From IMG/VR virus record IMGVR_UViG_3300011113_000136, positions 1-23,520 of that record: DNA of 23,520 nt; one strand, written 5' to 3'. The DNA comes from a virus. The translations under genes and the position numbers were made by a program. How positions within the stretch are numbered: the first letter of the stretch is position 1; each line of letters starts with the position of its first letter. Positions 5,202-23,520 of this stretch are shown in pieces. Below the pieces are notes generated by a model, which was not told the DNA's origin, made no database searches, and was given only the letters and a program-made list of their open reading frames with translations.

Positions 5202-5203
5202 TT

Positions 5204-7848: not shown

Positions 7849-7850
7849 TG

Positions 7851-9026: not shown

Positions 9027-9027
9027 C

Positions 9028-9960
9028 ATGAATATATTAGTGACTGGCGGTGCTGGATACATTGGTTGTATTCTCACAGAATATTTGATGCAGATGAATC
9101 ATGAAGTAACTCTTATTGATAACTTCATGTATAAACAGACAGGTTTAAATCATCTTTGTGAAAACAAAAAACTTACTATTGTAAATGGTGACATTCGTAA
9201 TCCACATCACATGTCATCACTGCTAAAGAAAGCAGATGTCATTATACCTCTTGCCGCACTTGTTGGCGCACCGTTGTGTAACAAAGATGTTGTTGGTGCA
9301 GATACAACAAACAAAGATGCGATGTTTTGGATGATGAACAGCGTTTCAAATGAACAACGAATCATTATGCCAACGACTAACTCAGCATATGGTACAGGCG
9401 ATGAAAATAATTTCTGTACAGAAGATTCACCACTGCGACCAATCTCAAAGTATGCTATTGATAAAGTTGCTGTAGAACAACGATTGATGGAACGTGAGAA
9501 CTCAATCAGTTATCGTTTGGCTACAGTGTTTGGTATGTCACCACGTATGCGTACAGATTTGCTGGTAAACGATTTAGTTTATCGTGCAGTCAATGATGGC
9601 TATGTAATCATCTTTGAAGGTCACTTCAAACGTAACTACATTCATGTGCGTGATGTGTGTGAAGCATTTTTACACGCCATGTATCAGTTTGATGAAATGA
9701 AGAGTAACATCTACAATGTAGGCTTGTCTTCAGCAAATGTATCTAAACTAGAACTCTGTGACATTATCAAGAAACACATACCAACATTTACAGTTATAGA
9801 AGGCGACATTAAGAAAGACCCAGATCAACGTAACTATATTGTCTCTAATGAAAAATTAGAAACAACAGGTTGGTTGCCTTACTATACAATAGATGATGGT
9901 GTGGAGGAACTCATCAAGGGATATACATACTTGAAGAATAACATTTACGGTAATGTATAA
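9028..9960 (+). CDS. NAD-dependent sugar epimerase/dehydratase (extended SDR)
   Basis: 310 residues. Rossmann motif GGAGYIG (7-13), acidic LIDNF end of beta-2, catalytic NSAYG (Ser/Thr near 117-119) and Y142-x3-K146 (KYAIDK). This is a sugar-nucleotide 4-epimerase/4,6-dehydratase/reductase family member; the length suits an epimerase or 4-ketoreductase. YRLATVFGMSPRMRTDLLVNDLV and the HFKRNYIHVRDVCEAF segment are typical of nucleotide-sugar-binding extended SDRs. It follows the dehydratase by one base and overlaps gene 55 by one base (TAATG), so it is likely cotranscribed with both. It plausibly finishes a deoxy sugar; the exact substrate is unknown. Confidence 0.88.
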   Translation: MNILVTGGAGYIGCILTEYLMQMNHEVTLIDNFMYKQTGLNHLCENKKLTIVNGDIRNPHHMSSLLKKADVIIPLAALVGAPLCNKDVVGADTTNKDAMFWMMNSVSNEQRIIMPTTNSAYGTGDENNFCTEDSPLRPISKYAIDKVAVEQRLMERENSISYRLATVFGMSPRMRTDLLVNDLVYRAVNDGYVIIFEGHFKRNYIHVRDVCEAFLHAMYQFDEMKSNIYNVGLSSANVSKLELCDIIKKHIPTFTVIEGDIKKDPDQRNYIVSNEKLETTGWLPYYTIDDGVEELIKGYTYLKNNIYGNV

Positions 9961-10499
9961 TGACAACAGCAAATCATTACGTCAACAACGCAGACTTTCT
10001 AGCAGCACTTATAAAATATAGAACAGATTGTGAAGATGCAAAGACTAATAGTAAACCAGAACCAAAGATACCAGATTACATTGGTGAGTGTTTTCTAAAG
10101 ATTGCAGAACATCTATCACGTAAGCCAAACTTTATTTCATACACATACCGTGATGAGATGATATCAGATGGTGTGGAAAACTGTCTGATGTACTTTCGTA
10201 ACTTTGATCCTGCTAAGTCTAAGAATCCATTTGCTTACTTTACACAGATAATTTACTATGCATTTCTGCGTAGAATTATGCGTGAAAAGAAACAACTATA
10301 TGTGAAGTACAAAGCCACACAACAATTCGGTTTGCTTGATGAAGGTGAGATGTATGAAGATGAAAACGGTAATATGAAACAGTTTGAATTGTATGATAAC
10401 ATCTCAGAGTTTATTCACAACTTTGAGGAAAATAAGAAAAAGAAAAAGGAAAAGAAGTCAGAGGGGCTTGAACAATTCCTAGATGATGATGTAGAATAA
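9960..10499 (+). CDS. 55: Late-transcription sigma factor gp55
   Basis: 179 residues (T4 gp55 185). gp55 replaces host sigma on core RNA polymerase and recognises TATAAATA late promoters, activated by the sliding clamp gp45. Matches T4 through YVNNADFLAALIKYRTDCED, then IAEHLSRKPNF and YRDEMISDGVENCLMYFRNFDPAKSKNPFAYFTQI, equivalent to the sigma region-2 fragment, then the FLRRIMREKKQL helix. The tail ends with acidic/hydrophobic GLEQFLDDD, like the gp45-binding C-terminal tail SLDFL of T4 gp55. A lysine-rich run precedes that tail. Presence of gp55, gp45 and a late promoter in the same window is consistent. Confidence 0.93.
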   Translation: MTTANHYVNNADFLAALIKYRTDCEDAKTNSKPEPKIPDYIGECFLKIAEHLSRKPNFISYTYRDEMISDGVENCLMYFRNFDPAKSKNPFAYFTQIIYYAFLRRIMREKKQLYVKYKATQQFGLLDEGEMYEDENGNMKQFELYDNISEFIHNFEENKKKKKEKKSEGLEQFLDDDVE

Positions 10500-10503
10500 T
10501 ATT

Positions 10504-11580
10504 ATGAAAATATGTGTGCTTGGTGATACTCACTTCGGTATGAGGGGTGACTCTTTAGATTTTCATAAATACATAGAGAAGTTCTACGAGAACGTCTTCT
10601 TTCCCTATCTAAAGGATCACAATGTTACTACCGTTGTACAACTTGGTGATCTTTTCGACCGCCGTAAGTTTATTAACTTCAATTCACTCTATCTGTGTCG
10701 TGAATATTTCTTTAATAAACTTGCAGAAAACAACATCACATTCATCACGTTCCTTGGCAATCATGATGTTGCTTTCAAAAACACCCTACAGGTTAATTCA
10801 TCCAAATTACTTTTAGACGGATATGATAATATTACTGTACTGGATACTTTTACTACAATGCAGTTTGGCGGCATTGATATTGATCTGGTGCCTTGGATAT
10901 GCGATGATAATCAAGAAGAAATTCTTCAAAAACTAAAAGACTCCAAATCACAAATTGTCTTTGGTCATTTTGAAATAAAAGGTTTTGAAATGGACCGTGG
11001 TAATGTGTGCCATGAGGGCATTGATAGAAACATATTCAATAAGTATGATATAGTTTTATCTGGTCATTTTCATCATCGTTCTGATGATGGGCATATTTAC
11101 TATGTTGGTACACCGAATGAAATGACATGGGCTGATTACAATGATCCACGTGGTTTTGTTATCTTCGATACACATACACGTGAGCAAGAGTTTATTCAAA
11201 ATCCATACAGAATGTTTCACAAGTTGAATTACAATGATGAACTTGAACATTTTGCTGAAGGTTACAAATCTTCATTTATGGATTATTCAATCTATGAAGG
11301 CTGTTATGTCAAAGTTGTTGTAGTCAATAAACAGAATCCATTTTTGTTTGACTTTGTGATTGACAGTATATACAAAGCTGGTGCTGCTGACATCTCAATC
11401 GTAGAAGACTTTACCGATGTAACAAGTGACAGTGATGATGAACTGATCGATCAAGCAGAAGATACGGTAACAATACTGTCAAAGTACATAGATAATTTGA
11501 CATTGAATGTTGAAAATGATAAACTGAAAAGTCTTATGCGTGAACTTTATGTGGAAGCATTGAATACAGAAATTGAATGA
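10504..11580 (+). CDS. 47: Recombination nuclease subunit gp47 (Mre11-like)
   Basis: 358 residues (T4 gp47 339). The nuclease of the gp46/47 complex, which resects DNA ends for recombination-dependent replication and degrades host DNA. All five metallophosphoesterase motifs are visible: GDTHFG (7-12), GDLFDRR (48-54), GNHD (85-88), GHFEIKG (154-160) and SGHFHHR (186-192). The C-terminal part is acidic. Its stop overlaps the gp46 start in ATGA, a classic coupled arrangement for a heterotetrameric complex. Confidence 0.96.
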   Translation: MKICVLGDTHFGMRGDSLDFHKYIEKFYENVFFPYLKDHNVTTVVQLGDLFDRRKFINFNSLYLCREYFFNKLAENNITFITFLGNHDVAFKNTLQVNSSKLLLDGYDNITVLDTFTTMQFGGIDIDLVPWICDDNQEEILQKLKDSKSQIVFGHFEIKGFEMDRGNVCHEGIDRNIFNKYDIVLSGHFHHRSDDGHIYYVGTPNEMTWADYNDPRGFVIFDTHTREQEFIQNPYRMFHKLNYNDELEHFAEGYKSSFMDYSIYEGCYVKVVVVNKQNPFLFDFVIDSIYKAGAADISIVEDFTDVTSDSDDELIDQAEDTVTILSKYIDNLTLNVENDKLKSLMRELYVEALNTEIE

Positions 11581-13286
11581 TACTATTTAAAACTCTAAAA
11601 TGGAAGAATCTATTAAGCACTGGCAATTACTTCACTGAGATAGCACTCAACAGTAATGCCAATACTTTGATTGTTGGTACGAATGGCTCAGGCAAGTCAA
11701 CAATGCTTGATGCTTTATGCTTTGCTTTATTTGGTAAACCATTTCGCAATGTCAACAAACCAAATTTGCTAAACAGTATTAATGGTAGAGATTGTGTTGT
11801 TGAAATAAATTTTTCTATTGGTAATAAAGAGTTCAAGATTGTTCGTGGTATCAAACCAAACATCTTTGAAATTTATCAAGATTCAGTTTTGCTGAATCAA
11901 GATGCGGCTGTAAGAGATTATCAAGACTATCTAGAGAGGTTTATTCTCAAACTAAACTATAAGTCTTTTACACAGATCGTTATTCTTGGTTCAGCATCCT
12001 TTACACCCTTCATGCAGTTGTCTGCTTCTGATCGCAGATCAATCATTGAAGATTTGCTAGACATTCAAATCTTTTCTACCATGAACGGTTTGGTCAAAGA
12101 AAGATTGACTGGTAACAAAGACCTGACAGTAGCAAAGAAAAATGATATAGCATTGTTGCTTCAAAAGTATGATTTGAAGAAAGAACATCAAGACAAACTC
12201 AATCAAGATACCGAAGAAAAGGTAAAAGAGTATGAGAAAGAGATACTTCTGTACAGAGAAACCATACGCACCCTACATGATGACATTGACAGCTTGGAGC
12301 AAGCCAAGCAAACCTTATCAGAAATCTGTGCTAAAATTCCTGAAAATGAAAAGAAGATTACTTCGTTTAAAAAGGTTGAATCTCAGATTGAAAGCAAAAT
12401 ATCCAAAGTGGGAACAGATAGAGAGTTCTATGAACACAATGCTGATTGCCCAACCTGTAGGCAAGCCATTACCTTGGAGTTTAAAGAAGGGCAACTTGTT
12501 GAACTTGGAACAAAAGAAAAAGAACTTAATGGTGCTTTGATAGAATTAAAGGCAAGAATCACTGAACAAGAGAATGTTGTAACTGAACTGCGTGAGAAAG
12601 AAAAAGAATTATCAAATGTTCGCATTCAGTTAGCCACAACACAGACTAGTGTAAAAGGTTTGAATAGTTCAATTACCAAACTAGAAAATCAAATTGAACA
12701 AGTAAAAAAATCAAAACAAGAAAACATTGATGAGAGTGAACTAAACGATATTAAAAAGGGAGTTGAAGAAGCGCAAGATGAACTTAAAGTTTTGATGGAA
12801 GAAAAATCATATCTTGACGTTGCCTCAGTTTTACTTAAAGATACTGGTATCAAAACTAATATTATCAAACAGTATTTACCTGTGATAAACAAATTGGTAA
12901 ACAAATATCTTACAAGTATGGATTTCTTTGTAAACTTTAATCTTGATGAGTCGTTTAAAGAAACAATTAAATCGCGGCATCGTGATGATTTTTCTTATCA
13001 CAATTTTTCAGAAGGTGAGAAACAGCGCATTGATATGGCACTTATGCTTACATGGAGAGCAATTGCCAAGTTAAAAAATTCTACCAATACAAATCTTTTG
13101 ATACTTGATGAGGTGTTTGATTCAAGTCTTGATAGCACTGGTACCGAAGAACTAATGAAGATTCTCCATAGTTTAGATGATGTAAACTTATTTGTTATTA
13201 GTCACAAAGGCGACATACTACAAGATAAATTTGCCAACACAATTCGATTTGATAAAATTAAAAACTTTTCAAGGATAGTGAAATGA
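11577..13286 (+). CDS. 46: Recombination nuclease ATPase subunit gp46 (Rad50-like)
   Basis: 569 residues (T4 gp46 560), the SMC-type ATPase partner of gp47. Walker A GTNGSGKST (34-42); coiled coils on both sides of a zinc hook CPTC (291-294), long Glu/Lys-rich heptads at ~170-285 and ~300-400; ABC signature FSEGEKQ (477-483) and Walker B LLILDE (507-512) followed by VFDSSLD. ATP binding engages the heads and controls gp47 nuclease access. ATGA overlaps at both ends place it in one operon with gene 47 and the deformylase gene. Confidence 0.96.
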   Translation: MILFKTLKWKNLLSTGNYFTEIALNSNANTLIVGTNGSGKSTMLDALCFALFGKPFRNVNKPNLLNSINGRDCVVEINFSIGNKEFKIVRGIKPNIFEIYQDSVLLNQDAAVRDYQDYLERFILKLNYKSFTQIVILGSASFTPFMQLSASDRRSIIEDLLDIQIFSTMNGLVKERLTGNKDLTVAKKNDIALLLQKYDLKKEHQDKLNQDTEEKVKEYEKEILLYRETIRTLHDDIDSLEQAKQTLSEICAKIPENEKKITSFKKVESQIESKISKVGTDREFYEHNADCPTCRQAITLEFKEGQLVELGTKEKELNGALIELKARITEQENVVTELREKEKELSNVRIQLATTQTSVKGLNSSITKLENQIEQVKKSKQENIDESELNDIKKGVEEAQDELKVLMEEKSYLDVASVLLKDTGIKTNIIKQYLPVINKLVNKYLTSMDFFVNFNLDESFKETIKSRHRDDFSYHNFSEGEKQRIDMALMLTWRAIAKLKNSTNTNLLILDEVFDSSLDSTGTEELMKILHSLDDVNLFVISHKGDILQDKFANTIRFDKIKNFSRIVK

Positions 13287-13855
13287 GTGAAAAATTAATT
13301 ATTGATACCACTGCTGGTATACAACAAATAGAAAAGATTGATCCTCTTCGTGTGTTTGGTGAAGATTACTCTATGCTTGGTCAAAAGATGCCAGAATACA
13401 CTGGCGGGTTTCCCGCACCAGCATTAGTCACATTGGCTAAAAGATTGAAGATGACAATGAAATTATATGCAGGTTTAGGATTGTCTGCTAATCAATGTGG
13501 TGTTGCTGAGAGAATGTTTGTCATCGGCACAGATGAATTTCAACTTGTTTGTGTTAACCCCAAAATTATTGATCAAGGTCCATCAGTAAAAGATAAAGAA
13601 GGTTGTCTTTCTTTTCCTGGTTTGTTTTTGAGTGTCGATAGACCCTCATGGATTGAGGTAGAGTTTACAGATGAAAATGGTAACGTAAATCAAGTAAAAC
13701 TTCATGGATTATCTGCACGTTGTTTTCTTCATGAACTTGATCATTTGAACGGAATAAGATATACTAATCTTGTAAAACCACTTGCATTGAAAATGGCAAG
13801 ACAAAAGGCAAACAAAATCGTAAAGAAAATTGTAAGAGAAAATAAAAAACAATGA
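13283..13855 (+). CDS. def: Peptide deformylase
   Basis: 190 residues. Removes the formyl group from the N-terminal methionine of new proteins. The three metal-site motifs are intact: GLGLSANQ (64-71), EGCLS (106-110, metal-ligand Cys108) and HELDH (150-154). Many marine phages carry shortened deformylases lacking the C-terminal helix; this one keeps a basic C-terminal extension (KMARQKANKIVKKIVREN). The N terminus (about 1-45) is longer than usual, with an odd segment QKMPEYTGGFPAP. ATGA overlap with gene 46 upstream and with the PP-loop gene downstream. The enzyme may support rapid phage translation, or the supply of particular phage or host proteins (inference). Confidence 0.93.
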   Translation: MSEKLIIDTTAGIQQIEKIDPLRVFGEDYSMLGQKMPEYTGGFPAPALVTLAKRLKMTMKLYAGLGLSANQCGVAERMFVIGTDEFQLVCVNPKIIDQGPSVKDKEGCLSFPGLFLSVDRPSWIEVEFTDENGNVNQVKLHGLSARCFLHELDHLNGIRYTNLVKPLALKMARQKANKIVKKIVRENKKQ

Positions 13856-14658
13856 TAGATAAACTTCTTGAAAAGATCATACAAGAAAAAGTTCACGACA
13901 AAGAGGTCGCTGTTTTACTGTCTGGTGGTGCTGATTCATTGTCAGTTGCTCTTGCTGCACATAGGTTAGGATGTGATGTACATGCTTATTCATTTCATCT
14001 AAAAGACTTACCGACTTATGATGCCAGTAAAGCGGAAGATTCTTCAAGCAAGATGGGTTGGAAGTTTACTAAAGTAATTGTTCCAGTAGATAATCTTGTA
14101 GAAGATTTTCATACATTAAGAAAAAAGTTTGAGTGTGTAAAGAAAACACAGTATGAATGTACGTTTCCTTTTCTGTATATTTTTCCACAGATAAAAGAGA
14201 AAAATATTCTTTCAGGTTTTGCTGCTGATGGACACTATGGTGTTTCGAAAAAAGCATGTATACATTTTAAGCAGCCTAAAGAATTGTTCGATCAGTTTCG
14301 TTCCAGTTATCTAAGTGATCCTCCAGGTTTAAGACAACAATTGGCACTAAGCAAATACTATAATAAAGAGTATATAACACCATATACGGATCAAAGAGTG
14401 ATTGATTACTTTCATCAGTTTGATTGGTTTCAGGTTAATCAACCTTATCAGAAGCATCATGTAGTGGAAGCGTTTACCGAATTTAAAACAATAGGTAAAC
14501 CTAAACATCATATCAATCTTCAATTAGGCTCTGGTATTGACAAGGCATTTGAAAGCCTGCTAGAATGTAATGAAATAAATTACAAAAGACGAAATCGAAT
14601 GTTAGACGTTTATAGAGATTGGAAAGATCGTGGCGAAATACGAACACTATTTGATTGA
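13852..14658 (+). CDS. Asparagine-synthetase-like PP-loop ATP pyrophosphatase (putative amide ligase)
   Basis: 268 residues. N-terminal PP-loop motif VLLSGGADSLS (SGGADS 24-29) and FAADGHYG (123-130), which resembles the SGDGADE loop of AsnB; together they point to the synthetase domain of asparagine synthetase, which adenylates a carboxylate and replaces AMP with ammonia. The N-terminal glutaminase domain of AsnB (starting with Cys) is absent, so it would use free ammonia or a partner. Lys/Arg-rich C terminus (KRRNRMLDVYRDWKDRG) could bind nucleic acid. It overlaps the DNA methyltransferase by 29 bases, suggesting a role with it; amidation of a carboxylated base is my proposal. A thiolase-type or other PP-loop activity remains possible. 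Confidence 0.7.
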   Translation: MIDKLLEKIIQEKVHDKEVAVLLSGGADSLSVALAAHRLGCDVHAYSFHLKDLPTYDASKAEDSSSKMGWKFTKVIVPVDNLVEDFHTLRKKFECVKKTQYECTFPFLYIFPQIKEKNILSGFAADGHYGVSKKACIHFKQPKELFDQFRSSYLSDPPGLRQQLALSKYYNKEYITPYTDQRVIDYFHQFDWFQVNQPYQKHHVVEAFTEFKTIGKPKHHINLQLGSGIDKAFESLLECNEINYKRRNRMLDVYRDWKDRGEIRTLFD

Positions 14659-15868
14659 AGATGTAAGAAAATCATCAGCACGTGAATTGTTTACCGTTGT
14701 CAGTACATTTGCTGGTGGTGGTGGCAGTTCTACAGGCTATCGTTTGGCTGGTGGTAAAGTTATTGCAATTAATGAGTTTGTTGAAGAGGCAATTAAAACT
14801 TATTCAACAAATTTTCCCGACACAAAAATTATACCAGGCGACATTAAAAAATTAAAAGGTCAAGACTTTCTTGAAGTTGCCAATCTAAAGGCGGGTGAAC
14901 TTGATATACTTGATGGATCACCACCCTGCTCTGCGTTTTCTGTAGCGGGTAAGCGTGAGAAGAACTGGAAAGGTGCAGTTCATTATGAATCAGAAAGTTA
15001 CTTTGATTTCGATACAGGTGAGATGGTAACTGTTGGGGGGTATGAAGTTAAAGATGGTGTTAAGAAATACTCTGATGATCAAGTTGTTGAAGCGATTGAA
15101 GATTTGTTTCTTGAGTTTATTCGTATTGCTAAAGACATAAAACCTAAAGTAATCATTGCTGAAAACGTCAAAGGCATTACAATGGGTAAGGCAAGAGACA
15201 AACTACATCAGTTTCAAAACGAATTTGAAAAGATAGAACCCGGATATTTGGTCACTCATCATGTATTGAACGCTGCTGATTATGGTGTGCCACAAGCACG
15301 TGAAAGATTGTTCTTTGTTTGTGTTCGCCAAGATGTTGCGGATAAAGTTGGCTTGAATTTTCTCAACATGAACACGATGACTTATCCAATACCATCGACA
15401 CCAAAACATATCAGCATAAAGAGTGCCATTGATCACATACAAAATGATCCCGATGAAGAGAAAGAACTACTTGATTTTGTTGAAGGTTCTTTTCAAAAGA
15501 AGTTTATTGAACTATTGCCATTCAATCCAACAAAGCACACTAAACCATCTGACCCAGAGTTCCGTGATAAGAATCCAAAAGGTTCGTGCTTCAATATGAT
15601 TCGACCAGCAATTAATTTACCATCACCAACTCTGACACAAGCTGGTCAACAGAAAGGTGTGAGTGGTGTTTTTCATTACGCAAAGAATCGTAAGTTGACT
15701 ATCAAAGAATTGAAGATACTGATGAGCATTCCAGATGATTATGTGTTGACTGGTAAGTTTGATCAGCAAGCAGAAAGATTAGGTAGAATGGTTGCACCTA
15801 AAATGATGGCTGCACTGTCATCACATGTATATGAAAACATTCTGAAACCATACAAGGAATCGTTATGA
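14630..15868 (+). CDS. C5-cytosine DNA methyltransferase with variant motif X (possible carboxymethyltransferase)
   Basis: 412 residues. Motif I FAGGGGSSTGYRLAGG (27-42), motif IV SPPCSAFS with catalytic Cys100, motif VI ENV (178-180), motif VIII QARER (222-226), a ~90-residue target-recognition region (~235-325), motif IX INLPSPTLT (328-336) and motif X ERLGRMVAP (382-390). In ordinary family members motif X reads GN(S/A)V; here Asn is Arg386 (AGA at 15785-15787). Asn-to-Lys at that position in M.MpeI is known, from memory, to let the enzyme use carboxy-SAM. The start is GTG at 14630, the only upstream start before motif I, within the preceding gene. The CmoA-like gene follows with an ATGA overlap. 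Target site cannot be read from sequence. Confidence 0.88.
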   Translation: MAKYEHYLIEDVRKSSARELFTVVSTFAGGGGSSTGYRLAGGKVIAINEFVEEAIKTYSTNFPDTKIIPGDIKKLKGQDFLEVANLKAGELDILDGSPPCSAFSVAGKREKNWKGAVHYESESYFDFDTGEMVTVGGYEVKDGVKKYSDDQVVEAIEDLFLEFIRIAKDIKPKVIIAENVKGITMGKARDKLHQFQNEFEKIEPGYLVTHHVLNAADYGVPQARERLFFVCVRQDVADKVGLNFLNMNTMTYPIPSTPKHISIKSAIDHIQNDPDEEKELLDFVEGSFQKKFIELLPFNPTKHTKPSDPEFRDKNPKGSCFNMIRPAINLPSPTLTQAGQQKGVSGVFHYAKNRKLTIKELKILMSIPDDYVLTGKFDQQAERLGRMVAPKMMAALSSHVYENILKPYKESL

Positions 15869-16545
15869 CTAAGTTTACGTTTGCACAAAGAGAAGAGGGC
15901 TTCGACAATCACATAGAACATTCTATTCGTGGTTATACAAATCTCTGGAATGATGTACTCAAGTATTCTGAATACTTTGTTGAAGACTACACTAATGTTG
16001 TTGACATTGGTTGCTCTACAGGTAAACTACTTAAGGCAATGATCGCACAGAACACTTTTGCACCACATGCAAACTATGTCGGCATTGAAGTAGAAGAAGA
16101 TTTTTTTAAATCGTATGATGAAGATGAAGAACAATTTTCACATCTACGTTATCATCGTGGAGATGTTCGTGACTTCAGATTTCTAAATTGTAGTTTGGTT
16201 ACTTCAATTTTTACTTTACAGTTCATACAGGAAAAAGAAAGATCATCAATCATCAAACAAATCTATGAAGGATTGAATCCAGGTGGCGCTTTCATCTTTG
16301 CTGAGAAAACAATTGCTGAATGTTCCAAGATACAAGACATAAGAACATTTACCTACTATGATTATAAGCGTGAACACTTTACATCAGATGACATACTCAA
16401 CAAAGAAAAGCAATTGCGCCATATGATGAAGTTAAACACCAGAAAAGAACTCATCAACAAATGTGCCACAGCTGGATTTGCGTTTGATCGTATCGATTCA
16501 TTCTGGCAAAATCATAGTTTTACCGCATTTGTTGCCATAAAGTAA
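15865..16545 (+). CDS. cmoA: CmoA-like carboxy-SAM synthase
   Basis: 226 residues (E. coli CmoA 247). CmoA converts SAM and prephenate to carboxy-S-adenosylmethionine, normally for tRNA cmo5U34. Segments align with my memory of E. coli CmoA through the whole length: SIRGYTN (20-26) with SVPGYSN, VVDIGCSTG (45-53) with VYDLGCSLG, RGDVRD (98-103) with EGDIRD, FTLQF (116-120) identical, IYEGLNPGGAFIFAEK (133-148) with IYQGLNPGGALVLSEK, and the tail FTAFVAIK with FGSLVALK. The Arg199 position that binds the carboxylate is approximately Lys182 here, still basic. A plain SAM methyltransferase is the alternative. ATGA overlap with the DNA methyltransferase gene. Confidence 0.82.
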   Translation: MTKFTFAQREEGFDNHIEHSIRGYTNLWNDVLKYSEYFVEDYTNVVDIGCSTGKLLKAMIAQNTFAPHANYVGIEVEEDFFKSYDEDEEQFSHLRYHRGDVRDFRFLNCSLVTSIFTLQFIQEKERSSIIKQIYEGLNPGGAFIFAEKTIAECSKIQDIRTFTYYDYKREHFTSDDILNKEKQLRHMMKLNTRKELINKCATAGFAFDRIDSFWQNHSFTAFVAIK

Positions 16546-16549
16546 ACAC

Positions 16550-16578
16550 TTGACAAAGTAGCGGTTTCACGATATAAT
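16550..16578 (+). promoter_or_regulatory. Consensus sigma70 promoter P1 before the CobT-like gene
   Basis: TTGACA (16550-16555), 17-base spacer, TATAAT (16573-16578): exact consensus at both boxes. It starts just after the CmoA-like gene and opens a new early transcription unit. An imperfect inverted repeat (TCCC TTAT / ATAA ga GGGA, 16580-16602) lies at the start of the predicted transcript. Confidence 0.88.
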
Positions 16579-16627
16579 ATCCCTTATGATATATAAGAGG
16601 GATACAAAGTTGTCAATTCAGCAACAC

Positions 16628-16656
16628 TTGACAAACCTGAGTATGCCATGTATAAT
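16628..16656 (+). promoter_or_regulatory. Consensus sigma70 promoter P2 before the CobT-like gene
   Basis: TTGACA (16628-16633), 17-base spacer, TATAAT (16651-16656): again both boxes are exact. It is 78 bases downstream of P1, in tandem, and begins with the same 11-mer CACTTGACAAA. Predicted start near 16663, giving a leader of about 23 bases before the ATG at 16686. Confidence 0.88.
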
Positions 16657-16685
16657 GTATGTTCAGTGACAGTTGAGGTTATCGA

Positions 16686-18983
16686 ATGAGCAACATTCAA
16701 AATCAAAAGTCCGGTCTTGCCAAACTCATGGCAACCGAGAATCTAGTTGTACAACATGCCAAAGTTTCAACGGCAATGTTCAATCCCAAAACACGTGTTC
16801 TAACTTGTCCTATTTGGGAACAAATGTCTGGCGATCTTTATGACTTGTTAATGGGTCATGAAGTTGGTCACGCTATCGATACACCTGCTGATGGTTGGCA
16901 TGGTGCTGTACATGATCGTGGTCTAAACTACAAAGGCTTTTTGAATGTAGTTGAGGATGCACGTATTGAGAAACGACAGAAACGCCGTTACCCTGGTCTG
17001 CGCCGTTCGTTTATGAACGGCTTCAATGAACTGATGGACAAAGATTTCTTCGGTTTGAGAGGTCGCAGTATCAATTCGTTACCGTTCATTGATCGTTTGA
17101 ATATCTACACAAAGTCTAGTTACTCTTTGCCTGATGTTCGTTTCAATGCAAAAGAGCAAGAGTTTGTTGACCGTATTCAAGAATGCGAAACCTGGGATGA
17201 TGTTCTCAAACTCACTAATGAGATTTGGGATTACTCAAAAGAAGAACAGTCACAGACTAACACACCTCAAGATGACTTCGGCTTTGGTGATGAAGGTGAT
17301 GATGATTACCAAACTGAGCCAGGCTCGAATGAGGGTGATGCTGAGACTGATGGTCAAGGTGATGAAGAATCTAAGTCTAAAGCCAAAGGTGAAGACGGTG
17401 ATCAAGAAACAGAATCATCATCAAGTGGTGATGAACAGTCTGATGAAGATGGTGATGTTGACGGTGAAGATAAAAGTCAATTAAACCGTAACAAAGAATC
17501 ACAAAGTGTAAATCAAGACCAATCATCTCCTGAACCACGGTGTGAGACTGATGAAAACTTTCGTCAGAATGAAAACAAACTCATTGCCAAAAACGCACGT
17601 GAGTATCGATACCTTGATATTCCTAAGCCCAACTTGGCAAGAATTGTCACACCAGCAAAACGTGTTCAAGAGGTTCTGACTAAAGAATTTTCAGAGCAAC
17701 GACCAGAAACATACGAAACGGTTGCTAACAGCCTATACAATGATTTTCGCCGTAAGAATGAGCGATTCATTTCACTGTTAGCAAAAGAGTTTGAGATGCG
17801 TAAGGCTGCCGATAAGTTTTCGAAAGCCAAAGTATCAGCAACTGGTGACATTGATATTAGCCGCATTTTCAAATATCAAATTGATGATAACATTTTCAAA
17901 AAAGTAATGCGTGTGCCAAAAGGCAAATCGCATGGTCTTGTTTTGTTGCTTGATAAGTCAGGTTCAATGTCCGATAATTTGTCGGCATCATATGAACAGA
18001 TTTTGATTCTGGCTATGTTTTGTCGCAAAGTAAACATACCATTCACTGCTTATGGTTTTGGTAATGCTGATCATGTTCGTTACAGCATTGACTATCCTGG
18101 TGAACAAACTGATTACACAAGCAAAACATCTGAATGTTTTTCAGAAAACAACAATGAAATGTGGTTATCATCTGTGTATCTGCGTGAGATGATCAATTCT
18201 AAAATGAGCAACTCAGAATTTTCTAAAGCAGTCAAGAATATTCTGTGCCTTATGGATGCTTGGCATTCTGGTCGTTATGCTGGTGGTAAAAACTTTTATC
18301 GTCCACCTTCAGATTCATTGTCGAATACACCAATGACTGAGGCTTTGATTGCTTGTCAACCAATCATCAATGAGTTTCGTACTGTCAATAATCTTGACAT
18401 TGTGAATCTGTGTGTGGTACATGATGGTGATGCTGATGATATCAATTCGTTTCATGTGACCAACAATGTTGGTACTGGCTCACGTAACTTTTTCAACTCT
18501 GGTTATCAAAACGTTTTTCTGTGTGATAAGAAAAACAAGATTCAGCAAGAGATGACTGGAGGTGATGATGGTGTGCGTATTGCTATTGCTAAATGGTTGA
18601 CTAAAACAACTGGTGCTAAAATCATCGGTTTCTATTTGGCACCCAATCATCTTTTGAAAGGTGCTGTACGCCGCCGTTTACACAATGCTGAACTTGATGA
18701 ATTGCGTAAAAACGAACGGCAAAATTTCTTACAAATAAGAGATGCTTATGTGAAGTACATCAAAATTGTTCGTAAGGAAAAATTTCTTGAATCAAAGAAT
18801 CCTGGTTATGAATCATTCTTTATTCTACCCGGTGGTTCTGATTTAAGTGTTGATGATGAGGACTTTGAAGCACCAGAAAAAGTTACCACAACAACCTTGA
18901 CCAAGGCGTTCAGTAAGTTTGCCAAGAATCGTCAGGTCAATCGTGTTCTGGTATCACGGTTCATTGGTATGATAGCAGTTTGA
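16686..18983 (+). CDS. cobT: CobT-like protein with vWA domain and HExxH motif
   Basis: 765 residues. N-terminal domain with HEVGHAID (58-65) and VVEDARIE (88-95); the latter matches the VEQARVE segment of CobT. HExxH plus a downstream Glu fits a zinc site, possibly a metalloprotease. An acidic, low-complexity linker follows (~195-290, rich in D, E, G, S, Q). The C-terminal von Willebrand A domain has the MIDAS motif DKSGS (423-427), TPMT (548-551) and HDGDADD near residue 580. CobT with CobS forms an AAA+/vWA machine that in bacteria drives cobalt insertion by CobN; no CobN is here, so a remodelling role on another protein is possible. It is paired with the CobS-like gene downstream. Confidence 0.8.
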   Translation: MSNIQNQKSGLAKLMATENLVVQHAKVSTAMFNPKTRVLTCPIWEQMSGDLYDLLMGHEVGHAIDTPADGWHGAVHDRGLNYKGFLNVVEDARIEKRQKRRYPGLRRSFMNGFNELMDKDFFGLRGRSINSLPFIDRLNIYTKSSYSLPDVRFNAKEQEFVDRIQECETWDDVLKLTNEIWDYSKEEQSQTNTPQDDFGFGDEGDDDYQTEPGSNEGDAETDGQGDEESKSKAKGEDGDQETESSSSGDEQSDEDGDVDGEDKSQLNRNKESQSVNQDQSSPEPRCETDENFRQNENKLIAKNAREYRYLDIPKPNLARIVTPAKRVQEVLTKEFSEQRPETYETVANSLYNDFRRKNERFISLLAKEFEMRKAADKFSKAKVSATGDIDISRIFKYQIDDNIFKKVMRVPKGKSHGLVLLLDKSGSMSDNLSASYEQILILAMFCRKVNIPFTAYGFGNADHVRYSIDYPGEQTDYTSKTSECFSENNNEMWLSSVYLREMINSKMSNSEFSKAVKNILCLMDAWHSGRYAGGKNFYRPPSDSLSNTPMTEALIACQPIINEFRTVNNLDIVNLCVVHDGDADDINSFHVTNNVGTGSRNFFNSGYQNVFLCDKKNKIQQEMTGGDDGVRIAIAKWLTKTTGAKIIGFYLAPNHLLKGAVRRRLHNAELDELRKNERQNFLQIRDAYVKYIKIVRKEKFLESKNPGYESFFILPGGSDLSVDDEDFEAPEKVTTTTLTKAFSKFAKNRQVNRVLVSRFIGMIAV

Positions 18984-18990
18984 TAACAAT

Positions 18991-19012
18991 CCACCACTTG
19001 ACAAAGTGGTGG
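18991..19012 (+). repeat. Perfect inverted repeat with promoter -35 in its loop
   Basis: Arms CCACCACTT (18991-18999) and AAGTGGTGG (19004-19012) are exact reverse complements around a 4-base GACA loop. The TTGACA of the CobS-like promoter spans the arm and loop. No T run follows, so this is not a standard terminator; it could be an operator or weak terminator/3' end of the CobT-like transcript. Confidence 0.7.
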
Positions 19013-19026
19013 GCTTCATTTATAAT
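18998..19026 (+). promoter_or_regulatory. Consensus sigma70 promoter before the CobS-like gene
   Basis: TTGACA (18998-19003), 17-base spacer, TATAAT (19021-19026), both exact. Predicted start near 19033; the ATG at 19059 has an ATGGAG Shine-Dalgarno at 19042-19047. Shares CACTTGACAAA and spacing with both promoters before the CobT-like gene, so the two partners are probably expressed together. Confidence 0.87.
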
Positions 19027-19058
19027 AGTAGTTCCTAGTGTGATGGAGAATTTATATT

Positions 19059-20249
19059 ATGGCAACTCGTTCTGATAAGCGACAAGCATTTCTTGATGCT
19101 CTTACCGCAACAAACAAATCTACACTGACCCGTACAGAGGTACGCAGTGTTGCCAAAAAGTTAGGCATATCAACTCCGCAATGGTTTATTAAAGATGAGT
19201 CTAACAAGGTTAGCAGAGGTCTATACAAAGTCCCATCGGCTGCCTCTGCGCCCGCCTCAGCGGCTTCTATTGAACTCTCAGCGCAGGTTATACCAATGAC
19301 CAAGACTGAAGTTTCATCGGGTAATCGCATTGCTAATGTGACAACTGATCTTGAGATTGAGAATCTGATTCCTTCTCAATATGACAACTATGTTCCTTTT
19401 GGCAACTTTGATGATGTGTTGTCAATTGTGAAATCAAAACAGTTCTTTCCTGTGTTCATTACCGGTCAGTCTGGTAACGGTAAGACCATGAGCATTGAAC
19501 AGGCTTGTGCCAAAGCAAAACGAAAGTTTATTTGCGTATCAATGACACCTGATTCTGATGAGGGTGACTTGCTTGGCAACTATGTTCTAATCAATGGTCA
19601 GATGGAATGGCGTGATGGTCCTGTGACTGTTGCTGCCCGTCAAGGTGCCGTACTCTGTATTGATGAGATTGACTACGGCGCACAAAACTTGTCGTGCTTA
19701 CAACGGGTGCTTGAGGGTAAGCCATTCTTGCTAAAGAAAAAGAATGAGTTGGTAGTACCTGCGCCCGGCTTTACTGTGTTCGCTACTGCTAACACAAAAG
19801 GTAAAGGTTCTGAAGATGGTCGTTATATGTTTACCAATGTGTTGAATGAGGCGTTTCTTGAGCGTTTCCCTAACACAATGGAACAACAATGGCCACCAGC
19901 ACGTATTGAAGAAAAAATTGTCAACAAAGAACTTGATTCTGTCGGTCGTTCTGATGAAGTCTTTGCTAAGAATCTAATTACTTGGGCAAATACAATTCGC
20001 AATACGTTTGCTGATGGTGGTTGTGATGAGGTTGTTTCAACCCGCCGTCTGGTTCACATTGTCAAAACATTCGGTATCTACGGTGATAAGAAAAAAGCGA
20101 TTGAGTATTGCTTGAATCGTTTTGATGCTGATACTAAGATTACCTTTCTTGATCTGTATACTAAGATTGATGCTGGTATTGATCCTAATGCCGCACCAGT
20201 TGTCACCGATGAAGTACCGGTAACTAACTCCGAAGAACAACCGTTCTAA
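19059..20249 (+). CDS. cobS: CobS-like AAA+ ATPase (MoxR-related)
   Basis: 396 residues. AAA+ core: Walker A GQSGNGKT (136-143), Walker B AVLCIDEID (197-205), then QNLSCLQRVLEGKPF and FTVFATANTKGKG (sensor 1 Asn) and an arginine-finger segment EAFLERF. N-terminal ~60 residues (TRTEVRSVAKKLGISTPQWF, then GLYKV) look like a small DNA- or protein-binding domain joined by an Ala/Ser/Pro-rich linker. CobS genes occur widely in T4-like marine phages. Partner of the CobT-like vWA protein; the two would form a ring ATPase with a substrate adaptor. Cobalamin synthesis is not shown by anything else in the window. Confidence 0.85.
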   Translation: MATRSDKRQAFLDALTATNKSTLTRTEVRSVAKKLGISTPQWFIKDESNKVSRGLYKVPSAASAPASAASIELSAQVIPMTKTEVSSGNRIANVTTDLEIENLIPSQYDNYVPFGNFDDVLSIVKSKQFFPVFITGQSGNGKTMSIEQACAKAKRKFICVSMTPDSDEGDLLGNYVLINGQMEWRDGPVTVAARQGAVLCIDEIDYGAQNLSCLQRVLEGKPFLLKKKNELVVPAPGFTVFATANTKGKGSEDGRYMFTNVLNEAFLERFPNTMEQQWPPARIEEKIVNKELDSVGRSDEVFAKNLITWANTIRNTFADGGCDEVVSTRRLVHIVKTFGIYGDKKKAIEYCLNRFDADTKITFLDLYTKIDAGIDPNAAPVVTDEVPVTNSEEQPF

Positions 20250-20269
20250 GGTAATCTTTCACTTTTGCC

Positions 20270-20301
20270 AGAGAGAGTGTTGACACACTCTCTCTTTTTT
20301 T
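20270..20301 (+). terminator. Rho-independent terminator after the CobS-like gene
   Basis: An 11-bp perfect stem (20270-20280 with 20285-20295), 4-base loop TGAC and a run of T residues (20295-20301). The next promoter is built into the same bases: its -35 covers the loop and its spacer contains the T run. Confidence 0.93.
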
Positions 20302-20308
20302 ATATAAT
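20280..20308 (+). promoter_or_regulatory. Consensus sigma70 promoter before the winged-helix gene
   Basis: TTGACA (20280-20285), 17-base spacer, TATAAT (20303-20308), both exact. The predicted start is near 20315, leaving a leader of about 69 bases that contains a small hairpin followed by T residues. Confidence 0.85.
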
Positions 20309-20317
20309 GTTAAGTAT

Positions 20318-20344
20318 GTAGAGAAAAGTCGCCTCTACTTTTTT
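20318..20344 (+). promoter_or_regulatory. Leader hairpin with T run, possible attenuator
   Basis: GTAGAG (20318-20323) pairs with CTCTAC (20333-20338) around a 9-base loop, followed by six T (20339-20344). It begins within a few bases of the predicted transcription start, so it could stop some transcripts early or protect the RNA 5' end. The stem is only 6 bp, so it is weak. Confidence 0.4.
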
Positions 20345-20383
20345 ACATTTTTTGTGCGGCTAATTTTTAATGGAGTAAATTGA

Positions 20384-20647
20384 ATGTCTGCTAAAGAGAA
20401 AATTCTAAAGTATCTTTCTAAAGATGGTCCCTATAACACGTTGACTGTTGCTCAAGCACAATCACGTTTTGGAATTAGCAATGTTGGCGCACGTATTGAA
20501 GAACTTCGTGCTGAGGGTCATTGCATCTATACCAACAAGAAAAAACTCAGCAACGGTAAAACAATTACCTACTATCGTCTAGGTAAGCCAACAAGAGAAA
20601 TGATTGCAATGGCGCATTCAATTCTTGGTGGTCAAGCGTTTGCCTAA
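20384..20647 (+). CDS. Small winged-helix / HTH DNA-binding protein
   Basis: 87 residues. Helix-turn-helix pattern: KEKILKYLSKDGPYNTLTV, then AQAQSRFGISNVGARIEELRAEGHCIYT as helix-turn-recognition helix, followed by a wing NKKKLSNGKTITYYRLG. The length and wing suit a winged-helix regulator common in marine phages. It has its own strong promoter and is closed by a terminator, so it is a single-gene unit. A regulator of early phage or host transcription is likely; target unknown. ATGGAG (20370-20375) precedes the start. Confidence 0.75.
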   Translation: MSAKEKILKYLSKDGPYNTLTVAQAQSRFGISNVGARIEELRAEGHCIYTNKKKLSNGKTITYYRLGKPTREMIAMAHSILGGQAFA

Positions 20648-20665
20648 ATTGGGCTAAAATTGGTG

Positions 20666-20704
20666 GAGTGGGAGCATATATATTATATGTTCTCACTCTT
20701 TTTT
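20666..20704 (+). terminator. Rho-independent terminator after the winged-helix gene
   Basis: A 13-bp stem (20666-20678 with 20686-20698, two G-T pairs), 7-base loop and six T (20699-20704). It ends the unit of the winged-helix gene 12 bases before the next start codon. Confidence 0.9.
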
Positions 20705-20715
20705 ATGGATAGATT

Positions 20716-21531
20716 ATGCAAATACAAGTCGATATTGAACAACTAAGAAAAAACAAACTGTTTGTTGCCACACCCATGTACGGTGGAATGAATCACGGTC
20801 TGTACATGAAATCATGTCTTGATCTTCAAACTGTCATGATTAAGTATGGTATTGAAACAAAGTTTTCTTTTCTTTTCAACGAATCTCTCATCACAAGAGC
20901 AAGAAATTATTTGGTAGATGAGTTTCTACGCACAGATTTTACACACATGATGTTCATTGATTCGGATATTCATTTTGATCCGAATGATATAGTTGCTTTA
21001 CTTGCGCTTGATAAAGATGTTATCGGTGGTCCTTATCCAAAGAAGTCAATCAATTGGAGTAACATTGCTGAGACTGCTCGTCGTCATCCAGATTTAAATC
21101 CAAAAGAACTTGAGAACCTTGTTGGTGAGTATGTGTTCAATGTGGTAAAAGGCACACAACAATTTCAAGTATCTGATCCATTAGAAGTAATGGAAATTGG
21201 CACGGGTCATATGATGATCAAACGTGGTGTGTTTGATAAAATGAAAGAGGCTTACCCTCAAATCAAATACAAACCCGATCACATTGGTCAAGCACACTTT
21301 GATGGTTCACGTTACATTCATGCTTACTTTGACACTGTAATCGATACTGTTGATTCATGTGTTGGTGGTGGCTCAGAGCGTTATCTCTCAGAAGATTATA
21401 TGTTCTGTCAGATGTGGCGTAAGATTGGTGGACAAGTTTGGTTATGTCCATGGATGCGAACACAGCATATTGGTACATACGCATTTACTGGCAACATGCC
21501 CGCTGTTGCTCAGTATACTGGTAGACTGTGA
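20716..21531 (+). CDS. GT-A fold glycosyltransferase
   Basis: 271 residues. N-terminal KLFVATPMYGG (14-24), an NESLITRARN segment, then HMMFIDSDIHF with the nucleotide-sugar/metal DxD-type motif (DSD 82-84), and YLSEDYMFCQMW with an ED pair (226-227) at the usual catalytic-base position, followed by TQHIG (His251, possible metal ligand). This is the layout of family-2-like glycosyltransferases. Cytoplasmic: no membrane segment. The acceptor is unknown: a virion protein, host glycan or modified DNA base are all possible. No promoter is evident between the terminator and the start, so read-through or an unseen promoter supplies it. It overlaps the next gene in GTGA. Confidence 0.78.
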   Translation: MQIQVDIEQLRKNKLFVATPMYGGMNHGLYMKSCLDLQTVMIKYGIETKFSFLFNESLITRARNYLVDEFLRTDFTHMMFIDSDIHFDPNDIVALLALDKDVIGGPYPKKSINWSNIAETARRHPDLNPKELENLVGEYVFNVVKGTQQFQVSDPLEVMEIGTGHMMIKRGVFDKMKEAYPQIKYKPDHIGQAHFDGSRYIHAYFDTVIDTVDSCVGGGSERYLSEDYMFCQMWRKIGGQVWLCPWMRTQHIGTYAFTGNMPAVAQYTGRL

Positions 21532-21797
21532 TCGATTACAAGTACAGTGAAGACCGTATTCTTAAGGACATAAAAGAATATGTTGATAAGACATACGGTC
21601 AACACTACTCACTAAACAAATTCCAAACTTCGGAATTCATCATCGACTGTGGGCATGGTGAAGGATTCTTCATTGGTAACATCATCAAATACGCACAACG
21701 ATACGGCAAAAAGAATGGATACAATCGTGATGACTTGATGAAAGTTGTACACTATGCTATAATGGCTTTACACAACCATGATTTGACGAGGAAATAA
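21528..21797 (+). CDS. DUF3310-family protein (SaV-like)
   Basis: 89 residues with GTG start overlapping the glycosyltransferase stop. The C-terminal half, GFFIGNIIKYAQRYGKKNGYNRDDLMKVVHYAIMAL, matches the DUF3310 pattern (GN-x-x-KY-x-x-R-x-x-x-K...DL-x-K), common in phages and sometimes called nucleotide-kinase-like. No Walker motif is present, so I would not call it a kinase. The promoter of gene 45 lies inside its 3' end. Confidence 0.8.
   Translation: MIDYKYSEDRILKDIKEYVDKTYGQHYSLNKFQTSEFIIDCGHGEGFFIGNIIKYAQRYGKKNGYNRDDLMKVVHYAIMALHNHDLTRK
21736..21764 (+). promoter_or_regulatory. Extended -10 promoter for gene 45
   Basis: TTGATG (21736-21741), 17-base spacer and TATAAT (21759-21764) with TGC just upstream (21756-21758), an extended -10. 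It lies within the end of the DUF3310 gene; predicted start near 21771, leader about 30 bases with GAGGAAA before the ATG. Confidence 0.7.
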
Positions 21798-21800
21798 ATT

Positions 21801-22481
21801 ATGAAACTTTCAAATGAAACTTTGTCTGTCTTGAAAAACTTTGCCAGTATCAATCAAGGCATTGTTTTCAAACCAGGCAAAACAATTCGTACCATTTCTA
21901 CACATAAGAATATTCTTGCTGAGGCTGTTGTCTCTGAAGAGATTCCAAAAGAGTTTGGTGTGTATGATCTAAACAACTTCTTGTCCGTTCTTTCTCTGCA
22001 CAAAGAAGAGCCAGTCATTGACTTTGATGATGCAAATGTACTCATCTCTGGTCTACAAGGTCGCAGCAAAATCAAGTATCGTTTCTGTGCTACCAGCATG
22101 ATTGTTGCTGCACCAGACAAGAATCTGGAACTCAACAATCCAGAAATCAAATTTGATCTGAGTGCTGAAGACTTTGACTGGATTCTTCGTGCTGCCAATG
22201 TATTGTCTTCACCACATATTGCCGTTGAATCTGATGGTAGTAAAGTTTCTGTGACTGCATTTGATTTGCAGAATGATGCTGCACATACTGAATCACTTGA
22301 AGTCTCAAAGAGTAATGGTGACAATTACAAGATGCTATTCAAAACAGAAAACTTGAAGATGCTTGCGGGTGCTTATGCAGTTACAATATCTTCAAAAGGC
22401 ATTGCACACTTCAAACACAAATCAATGAACATTCAGTATTGGATTGCGACTGAGGCCGGTTCAAAATATGAGAAAGGTTAA
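21801..22481 (+). CDS. 45: Sliding clamp gp45
   Basis: 226 residues (T4 gp45 228). Trimeric ring that tethers the replicative polymerase and activates gp55-dependent late transcription. The N terminus KLSNETLSVLKNFASINQGI closely parallels T4 'KLSKDTTALLKNFATINSGI', then VYDLNNFLSVLSL with 'IYDLNGFLGILSL', and the second domain FDLSAEDFDWILRAANVL and MLFKTENLKMLAG. Starts at ATG with a good Shine-Dalgarno (GAGGAA). Directly upstream of a small ORF and clamp loader gene 44, as in T4-type replication clusters. Confidence 0.96.
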   Translation: MKLSNETLSVLKNFASINQGIVFKPGKTIRTISTHKNILAEAVVSEEIPKEFGVYDLNNFLSVLSLHKEEPVIDFDDANVLISGLQGRSKIKYRFCATSMIVAAPDKNLELNNPEIKFDLSAEDFDWILRAANVLSSPHIAVESDGSKVSVTAFDLQNDAAHTESLEVSKSNGDNYKMLFKTENLKMLAGAYAVTISSKGIAHFKHKSMNIQYWIATEAGSKYEKG

Positions 22482-22483
22482 TC

Positions 22484-22693
22484 ATGGGTAAGTTTGTTGT
22501 TTTTACTAATGCATCAGAGGTTTTTGATGGTGAATCTATTGCTATCAATAAAGAAGCAATCGCATCGGTATTTGAACCAGTAAAAACTATTCCAGAGCAA
22601 GAAGGTAAAACTATTATCTATGGTGTCAATGGCATTGATTGGCATGTAAAAGAACCATATCTGGAAGTGCTTGCAAAATTGAACGCTGACTGA
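22484..22693 (+). CDS. Small conserved-looking protein of unknown function
   Basis: 69 residues, not recognised. It starts 3 bases after gene 45 stops, with a GAAAGG sequence before the ATG. The pattern is two beta-rich halves: KFVVFTNA, then AINKEAIASVFEPV, then TIIYGVNGIDWHVKEPYLEVLAKL. The second half recalls the 'nG.x.V.E...eV' pattern of small SH3-like FlbD-type proteins, but that is weak. Because it sits between clamp and clamp loader, a link with replication or late transcription is possible. The gene 44 promoter overlaps its end. Confidence 0.65.
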   Translation: MGKFVVFTNASEVFDGESIAINKEAIASVFEPVKTIPEQEGKTIIYGVNGIDWHVKEPYLEVLAKLNAD

Positions 22694-22699
22694 TATAAT
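22671..22699 (+). promoter_or_regulatory. Sigma70-type promoter for gene 44
   Basis: TTGCAA (22671-22676), 17-base spacer, TATAAT (22694-22699). The -35 has four of six consensus bases, the -10 is exact. Predicted start near 22706; the ATG at 22732 follows a GAAAGGTG ribosome site. Confidence 0.65.
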
Positions 22700-22731
22700 A
22701 TATTACATTATGATTTTTGTGAAAGGTGATC

Positions 22732-23520
22732 ATGGAACATCTTCTGTGGACAGAAAAGTATCGACCACGAACAGTGGAAGATTGTATTCTGCCAGAACGT
22801 TTGAAAGCAGTGTTTCAACAATACGTGAACCAGAAAGAGATGCCAAATCTTCTTCTGGCTGGTGGGGCGGGCGTGGGCAAGACGACAATCGCCAAAGCCA
22901 TGTGCAACGAAATCGGTTGCGACTACATGGTAATCAATGGTTCTGATGAGAACGGTGTCGATACAATTCGTGTCAAAATCAAAAACTATGCATCATCTGT
23001 TTCTTTGTCTGGTGGCCGCAAAGTCATCATTCTAGATGAAGCAGATTATCTAACACCAAACGCACAAGCAATTTTGCGTAATGCGATTGAAGAGTTTGCC
23101 GCAAACTGTTCTTTCATTTTCACTTGTAACTACAAAAACAAAATCATTGATCCACTACATAGTCGTTGTGCGGTGATTGAATTTAATTTGAAGAATGGTG
23201 AAAAGCAAAAGATGGCCGGTGCTTTCTTTAAACGCATCACACACATACTCAATACAGAGAAAGTGGAATTTGACGAAAAGGTAATTGCTGAAGTAGTCAA
23301 AAAACACTTTCCAGATTTTCGTCGTGTTATTAATGAACTTCAACGCTATTCCAAACTCGGCAAGATTGATGTAGGCATCCTCTCTCAGATTGGCGATATT
23401 TCTCTAACACAGATTGTCAAACATCTGAAAGAAAAAGACTTTACATCCGTCCGTAAATGGGCAGCAACGTCGGAAATTGATAACACGACATTCTTTCGCA
23501 AACTCTATGATGCTTTGTAT
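22732..23520 (+). CDS. 44: Clamp loader large subunit gp44, N-terminal part
   Basis: Open to the window end: 263 residues seen (T4 gp44 319). AAA+ ATPase that opens the gp45 ring and loads it on primer-template DNA together with gp62. N terminus LLWTEKYRPRTVEDCILPE is the clamp-loader signature; Walker A GGAGVGKTT (44-52), Walker B IILDEAD (99-105), sensor-1 region FTCNYKNKII and the arginine-finger SRC motif (144-146). I translated it directly: the frame from ATG 22732 has no stop up to 23520. A 78-residue frame starting at 22710 in another phase is a shadow of this gene. Confidence 0.95.
   Translation, partial: MEHLLWTEKYRPRTVEDCILPERLKAVFQQYVNQKEMPNLLLAGGAGVGKTTIAKAMCNEIGCDYMVINGSDENGVDTIRVKIKNYASSVSLSGGRKVIILDEADYLTPNAQAILRNAIEEFAANCSFIFTCNYKNKIIDPLHSRCAVIEFNLKNGEKQKMAGAFFKRITHILNTEKVEFDEKVIAEVVKKHFPDFRRVINELQRYSKLGKIDVGILSQIGDISLTQIVKHLKEKDFTSVRKWAATSEIDNTTFFRKLYDALY

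Follow-up and report, generated by a model that had tools for sequence, protein, structure and literature searches.

The cobS region and its surroundings

The window, by which we mean the whole stretch of DNA analysed, is 23,520 bases long and constitutes the complete record IMGVR_UViG_3300011113_000136. Genes for a T4-type major head protein (phrog_138), a helicase (phrog_16) and a UvsY-like protein (phrog_231) place the phage among the T4-like myoviruses, and further T4-like core genes are present, namely gp46/47-like genes, a late sigma factor (phrog_234) and a sliding clamp (phrog_223). The family-matched ORFs lie on the + strand. The region of interest begins with a cobS-like gene (19059-20249, + strand; phrog_249, 1.4e-97), whose product shares less than 60% identity with each of its matches in the searched phage collection. 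It is followed, after a gap of 134 bases, by a winged-helix gene (20384-20647, + strand; phrog_4973, Pfam HTH_39) and then by an ORF at 20716-21531 (+ strand; phrog_1574, with an Anp1 match below the curated cut-off). In cyanophage S-IOM18, cobS directly adjoins gp154, the homologue of which in the window is ORF 21528 (43% identity over 81 residues). The order cobS, gp154, gp45 is common to the window and S-IOM18, except for two extra genes between cobS and the gp154 homologue in the window, the first following the element termed here site B and the second following site C.

Elsewhere in the window, inspection of the translations by eye suggests radical-SAM-, transketolase-, sugar kinase-, aminotransferase- and epimerase-like ORFs at 3681-9960, within the T4-like core; the one ORF of this block that was scanned gave no PHROGs match. 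A terminator with a TTCG loop (726-753) follows the major head protein gene. The window's only TATAAATA, the T4 late promoter motif, lies upstream of the tail tube gene at 763-770, with five bases separating it from the ATG. A search of the window against Rfam returned nothing at gathering scores.

A predicted terminator hairpin and a promoter share bases after cobS

Site B lies in the gap between cobS and the winged-helix gene. Its hairpin (20270-20295, + strand) has 11 pairs, formed by a left arm AGAGAGAGTGT (20270-20280) and a right arm ACACTCTCTCT (20285-20295) around the loop TGAC (20281-20284). Seven T residues follow (20295-20301, + strand), six of them beyond the stem. Superimposed on this predicted terminator is an exact TTGACA-N17-TATAAT promoter, with the -35 box at 20280-20285 and the -10 box at 20303-20308 (both + strand), which at 12/12 consensus positions is a strong promoter of sigma-70-like type. 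An earlier note on this DNA had proposed that terminator and promoter are built from the same bases, with the T run inside the 17-base spacer ahead of an exact TATAAT, and both statements hold. It had also assigned the -35 box to the loop and right arm; as worded this needs correction, since the box comprises all four loop bases and the innermost base of each arm, the left as well as the right.

The same note pointed to a second hairpin over a -35 box, and this site, termed site A, does exist upstream of cobS. The hairpin (18991-19012, + strand) covers the TTGACA (18998-19003) of another exact TTGACA-N17-TATAAT promoter (18998-19026, + strand; TATAAT at 19021-19026), but lacks a genuine U-run.

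The window contains five promoters of this form with no more than one mismatch, four of them exact and all on the + strand, against 0.48 expected; five were reached in none of 100 shuffles. Loose promoter matches were not enriched (44 versus 43.0 in shuffles of window positions 10000-23520), and terminator-like sites were (14 versus 7.2, sd 2.6).

Conservation and covariation among relatives

Relatives were taken from viral contigs as the best 80 of 595 confirmed loci encoding CobS relatives. The comparison was anchored on promoters and comprised 47 distinct sequences of site A and 49 distinct sequences of the first promoter downstream of cobS, all of them selected for matching the promoter at 9/12 or more positions with a spacing of 17, a choice that favours conserved boxes. 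Six of 81 sequences were left out for site A, three being too short and three (L081-L083) having no such promoter, with a hairpin seen by eye; five of 81 were left out for site B, one for shortness (L051), three for an 18-base spacer (L031, L032 and L068) and one for a missing promoter (L046). The 49 sequences after cobS were divided into 22 with TTTTT in the spacer and 27 others; because the former were selected on this string, their T run does not in itself count as a finding. In the 18 loci that carry an inserted gene after cobS (the cassette, see below), the first promoter is that of the cassette, so that the 27 others are a mixture of cassette promoters and site B of other clades.

A sequence passed the fold test when at most 2 of 200 shuffles, in which both promoter boxes were kept fixed, were equally stable. 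All 22 distinct T-run versions of site B passed, as did 43 of the 47 site A versions, with four failures, and 18 of the 27 others. Thus every distinct T-run version among these best 80 of 595 loci also has a significant hairpin. The boxes themselves vary little in the T-run set, with TTGACA in 21 of 22 and TATAAT, TATACT and TACAAT in 15, 6 and 1, respectively. The T run was counted without selection in the 58 comparable cassette-free loci, where 37 have it at the promoter after cobS and 21 do not (again among the best 80 of 595). Fourteen of these 21 retain a significant hairpin, eleven between the -35 and -10 boxes and three over the -35 box. A significant hairpin at the promoter after cobS was absent in 7 of the 58 (L077 and L079-L084), which are among the more distant relatives.

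The arms pair far more consistently in one register than in others. In the best dyad register, 98.5% of cells were paired for the T-run versions of site B (median 43.7% over 38 registers), 85.3% for site A (median 35.6% over 38 registers) and 77.3% for the 27 other versions (median 38.4% over 50 registers). Cells in which both bases had changed numbered 12 for the T-run versions of site B, 59 for site A and 35 for the other versions, against shuffle means of 2.8, 27.8 and 12.0, and in no case did any of 500 shuffles give as many; these counts come from related sequences and are not independent. Counting instead the pairs that show a double change gives weaker evidence, the observed number being reached by 139, 16 and 16 of the 500 shuffles, respectively. 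As a predicted structure, the composite of promoter and terminator is conserved across much of its family, and the proposal that one piece of DNA ends one unit and starts the next, as put forward in the earlier note, is well supported by this comparison among relatives.

With only 134 bases from cobS to the next gene, a terminator and a promoter might have met simply for want of intergenic space. Much of the family, however, preserves the arrangement with compensatory changes, and does so in two different registers at one position; this covariation makes a chance overlap extremely unlikely.

Probable selection on RNA rather than on double-stranded DNA

A palindrome lying on a -35 box occupies the classical position of an operator, which favours a reading in which a dimeric repressor or activator binds it as double-stranded DNA; the missing U-run at site A would also agree with this. 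A hairpin in + strand RNA tolerates G-U and does not tolerate A-C, whereas an operator should show no such preference. The raw G-U to A-C count (41 to 9 at site A) was discarded as evidence because wrong registers gave similar ratios. Expectations were instead calculated from column composition, with rows picked by other pairs only. The stem cells then contained 42 G-U against about 62 predicted, so that G-U too is under expectation, and 2 A-C against about 21 predicted. Both A-C cells fall in the set without a T run, and 8 other mismatch cells remain.

Avoidance of A-C where G-U occurs is not expected from a DNA-binding protein. Nor do the arms have the conserved sequence of an operator, as they vary with compensatory change; the arms of sites A and B are unrelated, with dyad centres one base apart (3.5 and 2.5), and in other clades the dyad sits in the spacer. 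Given the strand asymmetry, we regard an operator as highly improbable. Since the stems vary yet mostly pair, and A-C is nearly absent while G-U occurs, the alignments indicate that the selected object is most likely a + strand RNA hairpin. The same asymmetry, together with the + strand orientation of the family-matched ORFs, makes the RNA of a transcript entering from upstream the most likely structure under selection; transcripts initiated at the site B promoter itself would exclude the hairpin.

Such an RNA hairpin could instead protect the 3' ends of readthrough transcripts or be the place where these are processed, whether or not termination also occurs; the U-run of site B would then have been added in some members of the family. 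In agreement with this, pairing is maintained without a U-run at site A and in the spacer-type hairpins, and 14 of 58 cassette-free loci have a hairpin after cobS that lacks a T run. The presence of the T run in 37 of the same 58 loci, and the occurrence of T-run composites in phages nt-1 and Aeh1, count against it, and for site B we consider it unlikely. Site A is a separate matter. No T run longer than four was found in 46 of its 47 distinct versions among the best 80 of 595 CobS relatives, so it should be a poor intrinsic terminator; its hairpin may bring about a weak transcript ending, or serve in 3'-end protection or processing.

Proposed function of site B

Stem-loops combined with promoters have been named "promoter early stem loops (PeSLs)" in T4-like phages, where they have a role in gene shuffling between close relatives (PMC4503421). 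A title cited in two other papers speaks of "composite conserved promoter-terminator motifs" in T4-like phages (PMC5931544, PMC5348500). On the sequence evidence above, site B is very probably a composite promoter-terminator of the PeSL kind, which would end the cobS transcript and start that of the winged-helix gene. RNA polymerase arriving from cobS would form the RNA hairpin and U-run and stop. The same bases, as a double helix, would serve as the -35 box and spacer of a host-type sigma-70 promoter, and the transcript of the winged-helix gene would start about seven bases past the TATAAT. Sharing bases in this way would insulate adjacent small units in little space, and each unit would become a self-contained gene with its promoter, able to be lost, gained or swapped. 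That site B both terminates and initiates in the cell is what we infer from its anatomy and conservation.

A more elaborate version would have the polymerase that stops in the U-run, and hence on the next -10 box, bind sigma and initiate again from the shared promoter without dissociating. Single-molecule work describes polymerase as almost always remaining on the DNA after release and often restarting, so that a restart at the shared promoter is possible, and it also describes the restarts as usually running in the reverse direction, which counts against such a hand-off (PMC6978322). Much of the family, moreover, keeps the hairpin without a U-run. We find this version distinctly improbable. 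If true, selection for the hand-off, beyond compactness, would explain why bases are shared rather than promoter and terminator placed side by side.

Neighbouring elements

The 5' leader of the winged-helix gene contains a predicted H-type pseudoknot (20318-20361, + strand), with stem 1 formed by 20318-20323 and 20333-20338 and stem 2 by 20327-20332 and 20356-20361. Its last strand ends ten bases ahead of a GGAG. From the window and 53 distinct relatives, 22 sequences were chosen; in these, 98.5% of cells were paired and 36 cells had a double change, against 8.0 in shuffles (0 of 500 as many); 8 of the 12 pairs change on both sides, which was matched by 2 of 500 shuffles. The count of further pair types was not unusual (162 of 500 shuffles). 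The predicted pseudoknot is thus strongly covarying; it gave no Rfam match, and a riboswitch could be among its possible readings.

Site C (20665-20699, + strand), before the ORF at 20716, is a T-tailed hairpin with TATATT in its loop. All 53 distinct versions passed a fold test, and TATANT occurs in 51 of the 53 within the 60 bases examined, its position in the loop being assigned by eye. No -35 box is evident by eye. By analogy with phage RB49, site C is possibly a composite with the -10 box in the loop.

Gene turnover beside site B

Among the best 80 of 595 relatives, 76 were measurable for the interval between the cobS stop and site B, and 18 of these carry an extra gene there, of about 460-490 residues. 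L061-L064 and similar sequences are near copies, and 18 is therefore not a count of events. The cassette gene has its own promoter, the -35 box of which starts 1 to 3 bases past the cobS stop codon; it passed the fold test in 12 of the 18 loci, with the hairpin between the -35 and -10 boxes. Four representatives were scanned (L018:2656-4041, L025:4127-5503, L033:6287-7729 and L061:6275-7645), which share 23-43% mutual identity. All four matched GmrSD_N and all four matched an HNH-kind nuclease, in each case with two above the curated cut-off. It is possible that the position after cobS is a slot for nucleases directed against competing phages.

Losses were also seen at this place. The winged-helix gene is absent from L077. 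In L046 the promoter and the leader structure are missing, which an assembly fault could explain. PeSLs are placed where genes are gained and lost, and the extra gene in 18 of 76 relatives and the L077 locus without its winged-helix gene are instances of this at site B. Such turnover fits the published role of PeSLs; it shows turnover and not the mechanism, and a part of the element itself in gene exchange is what we infer. Site B marks a place in a conserved block of phage genes where genes for GmrSD/HNH-like nucleases are gained and lost.

Distribution of hairpin-bearing promoters in the window and the family

The suggestion of a design habit of this phage stands in part. Two of the four exact promoters of the window carry a hairpin; those at 16550 and 16628 have none of this kind, and the habit is narrower than proposed, clustering around cobS. 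In the family sequences, the comparison of which is biased to the cobS region, promoters of at least 11/12 form 111 clusters, and in 26 of these a strong hairpin was seen in at least one member. By position and by our own reading of the sequences, which rests on the 34 of 111 clusters listed, 22 of the 26 are site A (10), site B (8) or the cassette promoter (4). The other 89 clusters, among them versions of sites A and B that lack the hairpin, contain four with a strong hairpin, one of them around the -10 box (3 of 6 members) and three upstream. The former is an exact promoter from L026:106 onward and in its relatives, in which the TATAAT is precisely the hairpin loop.

Outside the aligned sets of sites A and B, 11 of 60 distinct exact promoters passed the fold test, which reaches only to the -10 box and is blind to hairpins around it, whereas the cluster test sees these. 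Ten of the 11 are site B by sequence, lying behind a cassette, having an 18-base spacer or belonging to loci found by pattern, which leaves 1 of 50. A pattern of loop plus T run retrieved 36 stretches of viral contigs, at least one of which (L142) showed no significant hairpin. Most other strong promoters of the family are without a hairpin.

Comparison with PeSLs and ordinary terminators

Six named phage genomes were scanned for strong promoters, defined as at least 11/12 consensus. A strong hairpin was found on 17 of 73 in RB49, 8 of 23 in nt-1, 10 of 34 in Aeh1 and 1 of 7 in Felix O1, the last of spacer type, and on none of 8 in T4 and none of 19 in S-IOM18. Permuted-consensus controls, six per genome, gave 0 or 1 each on few sites. 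Overall, 36 of 164 real strong promoters bear a strong hairpin against 7 of 222 permuted-consensus sites, which likewise speaks against a chance overlap. Composites are therefore a habit of several T4-like phages, including but not confined to the one from which the window comes.

At site B a stem-loop is combined with a strong promoter, as in PeSLs. The stem-loops of PeSLs are reported to be effective terminators, and the work of Arbiol (2010) and Comeau (2014) was reportedly on RB49/phi1 and PST/nt-1. For site B a canonical stem and U-run are predicted, and site A is without the U-run. With respect to the published role in recombination between copies, gene turnover is seen, and the arms of sites A and B differ, so that the two are not near-identical copies. 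The present comparison extends the PeSL kind to a phage group known here from viral contigs, and provides evidence for the maintenance of such hairpins as RNA structures.

An attribution of PeSLs to Felix O1 and rV5 was considered and rejected. The rV5 listing of promoters and terminators, in the portion available, contains no such composite, Felix O1 has the single spacer-type case among 7 strong promoters, and it is Arbiol (2010) and Comeau (2014) to whom the citing papers refer.

An ordinary intrinsic terminator of the phage, at 726-753, resembles site B in its stem, tight loop and U-run, but it has a TTCG loop, and no promoter of sigma-70 consensus is listed there whose -35 box falls within the hairpin. 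The closer likeness is to PeSLs: in these elements of T4-like phages, as at site B, a strong sigma-70-like promoter is joined to a stem-loop next to genes subject to gain and loss. In five promoters of nt-1 and one of Aeh1, as at site B, the hairpin includes the -35 box and the spacer includes a T run; the Aeh1 composite has the same centre (2.5). In nt-1, unlike site B, the -35 box is mostly in the left arm and not in the loop, and the RB49 composites differ in that their hairpin mostly occupies the spacer (8 of 17) or surrounds the -10 box (7 of 17). Within RB49 and within nt-1 the composites are alike, whereas sites A and B of the phage described here are unlike.
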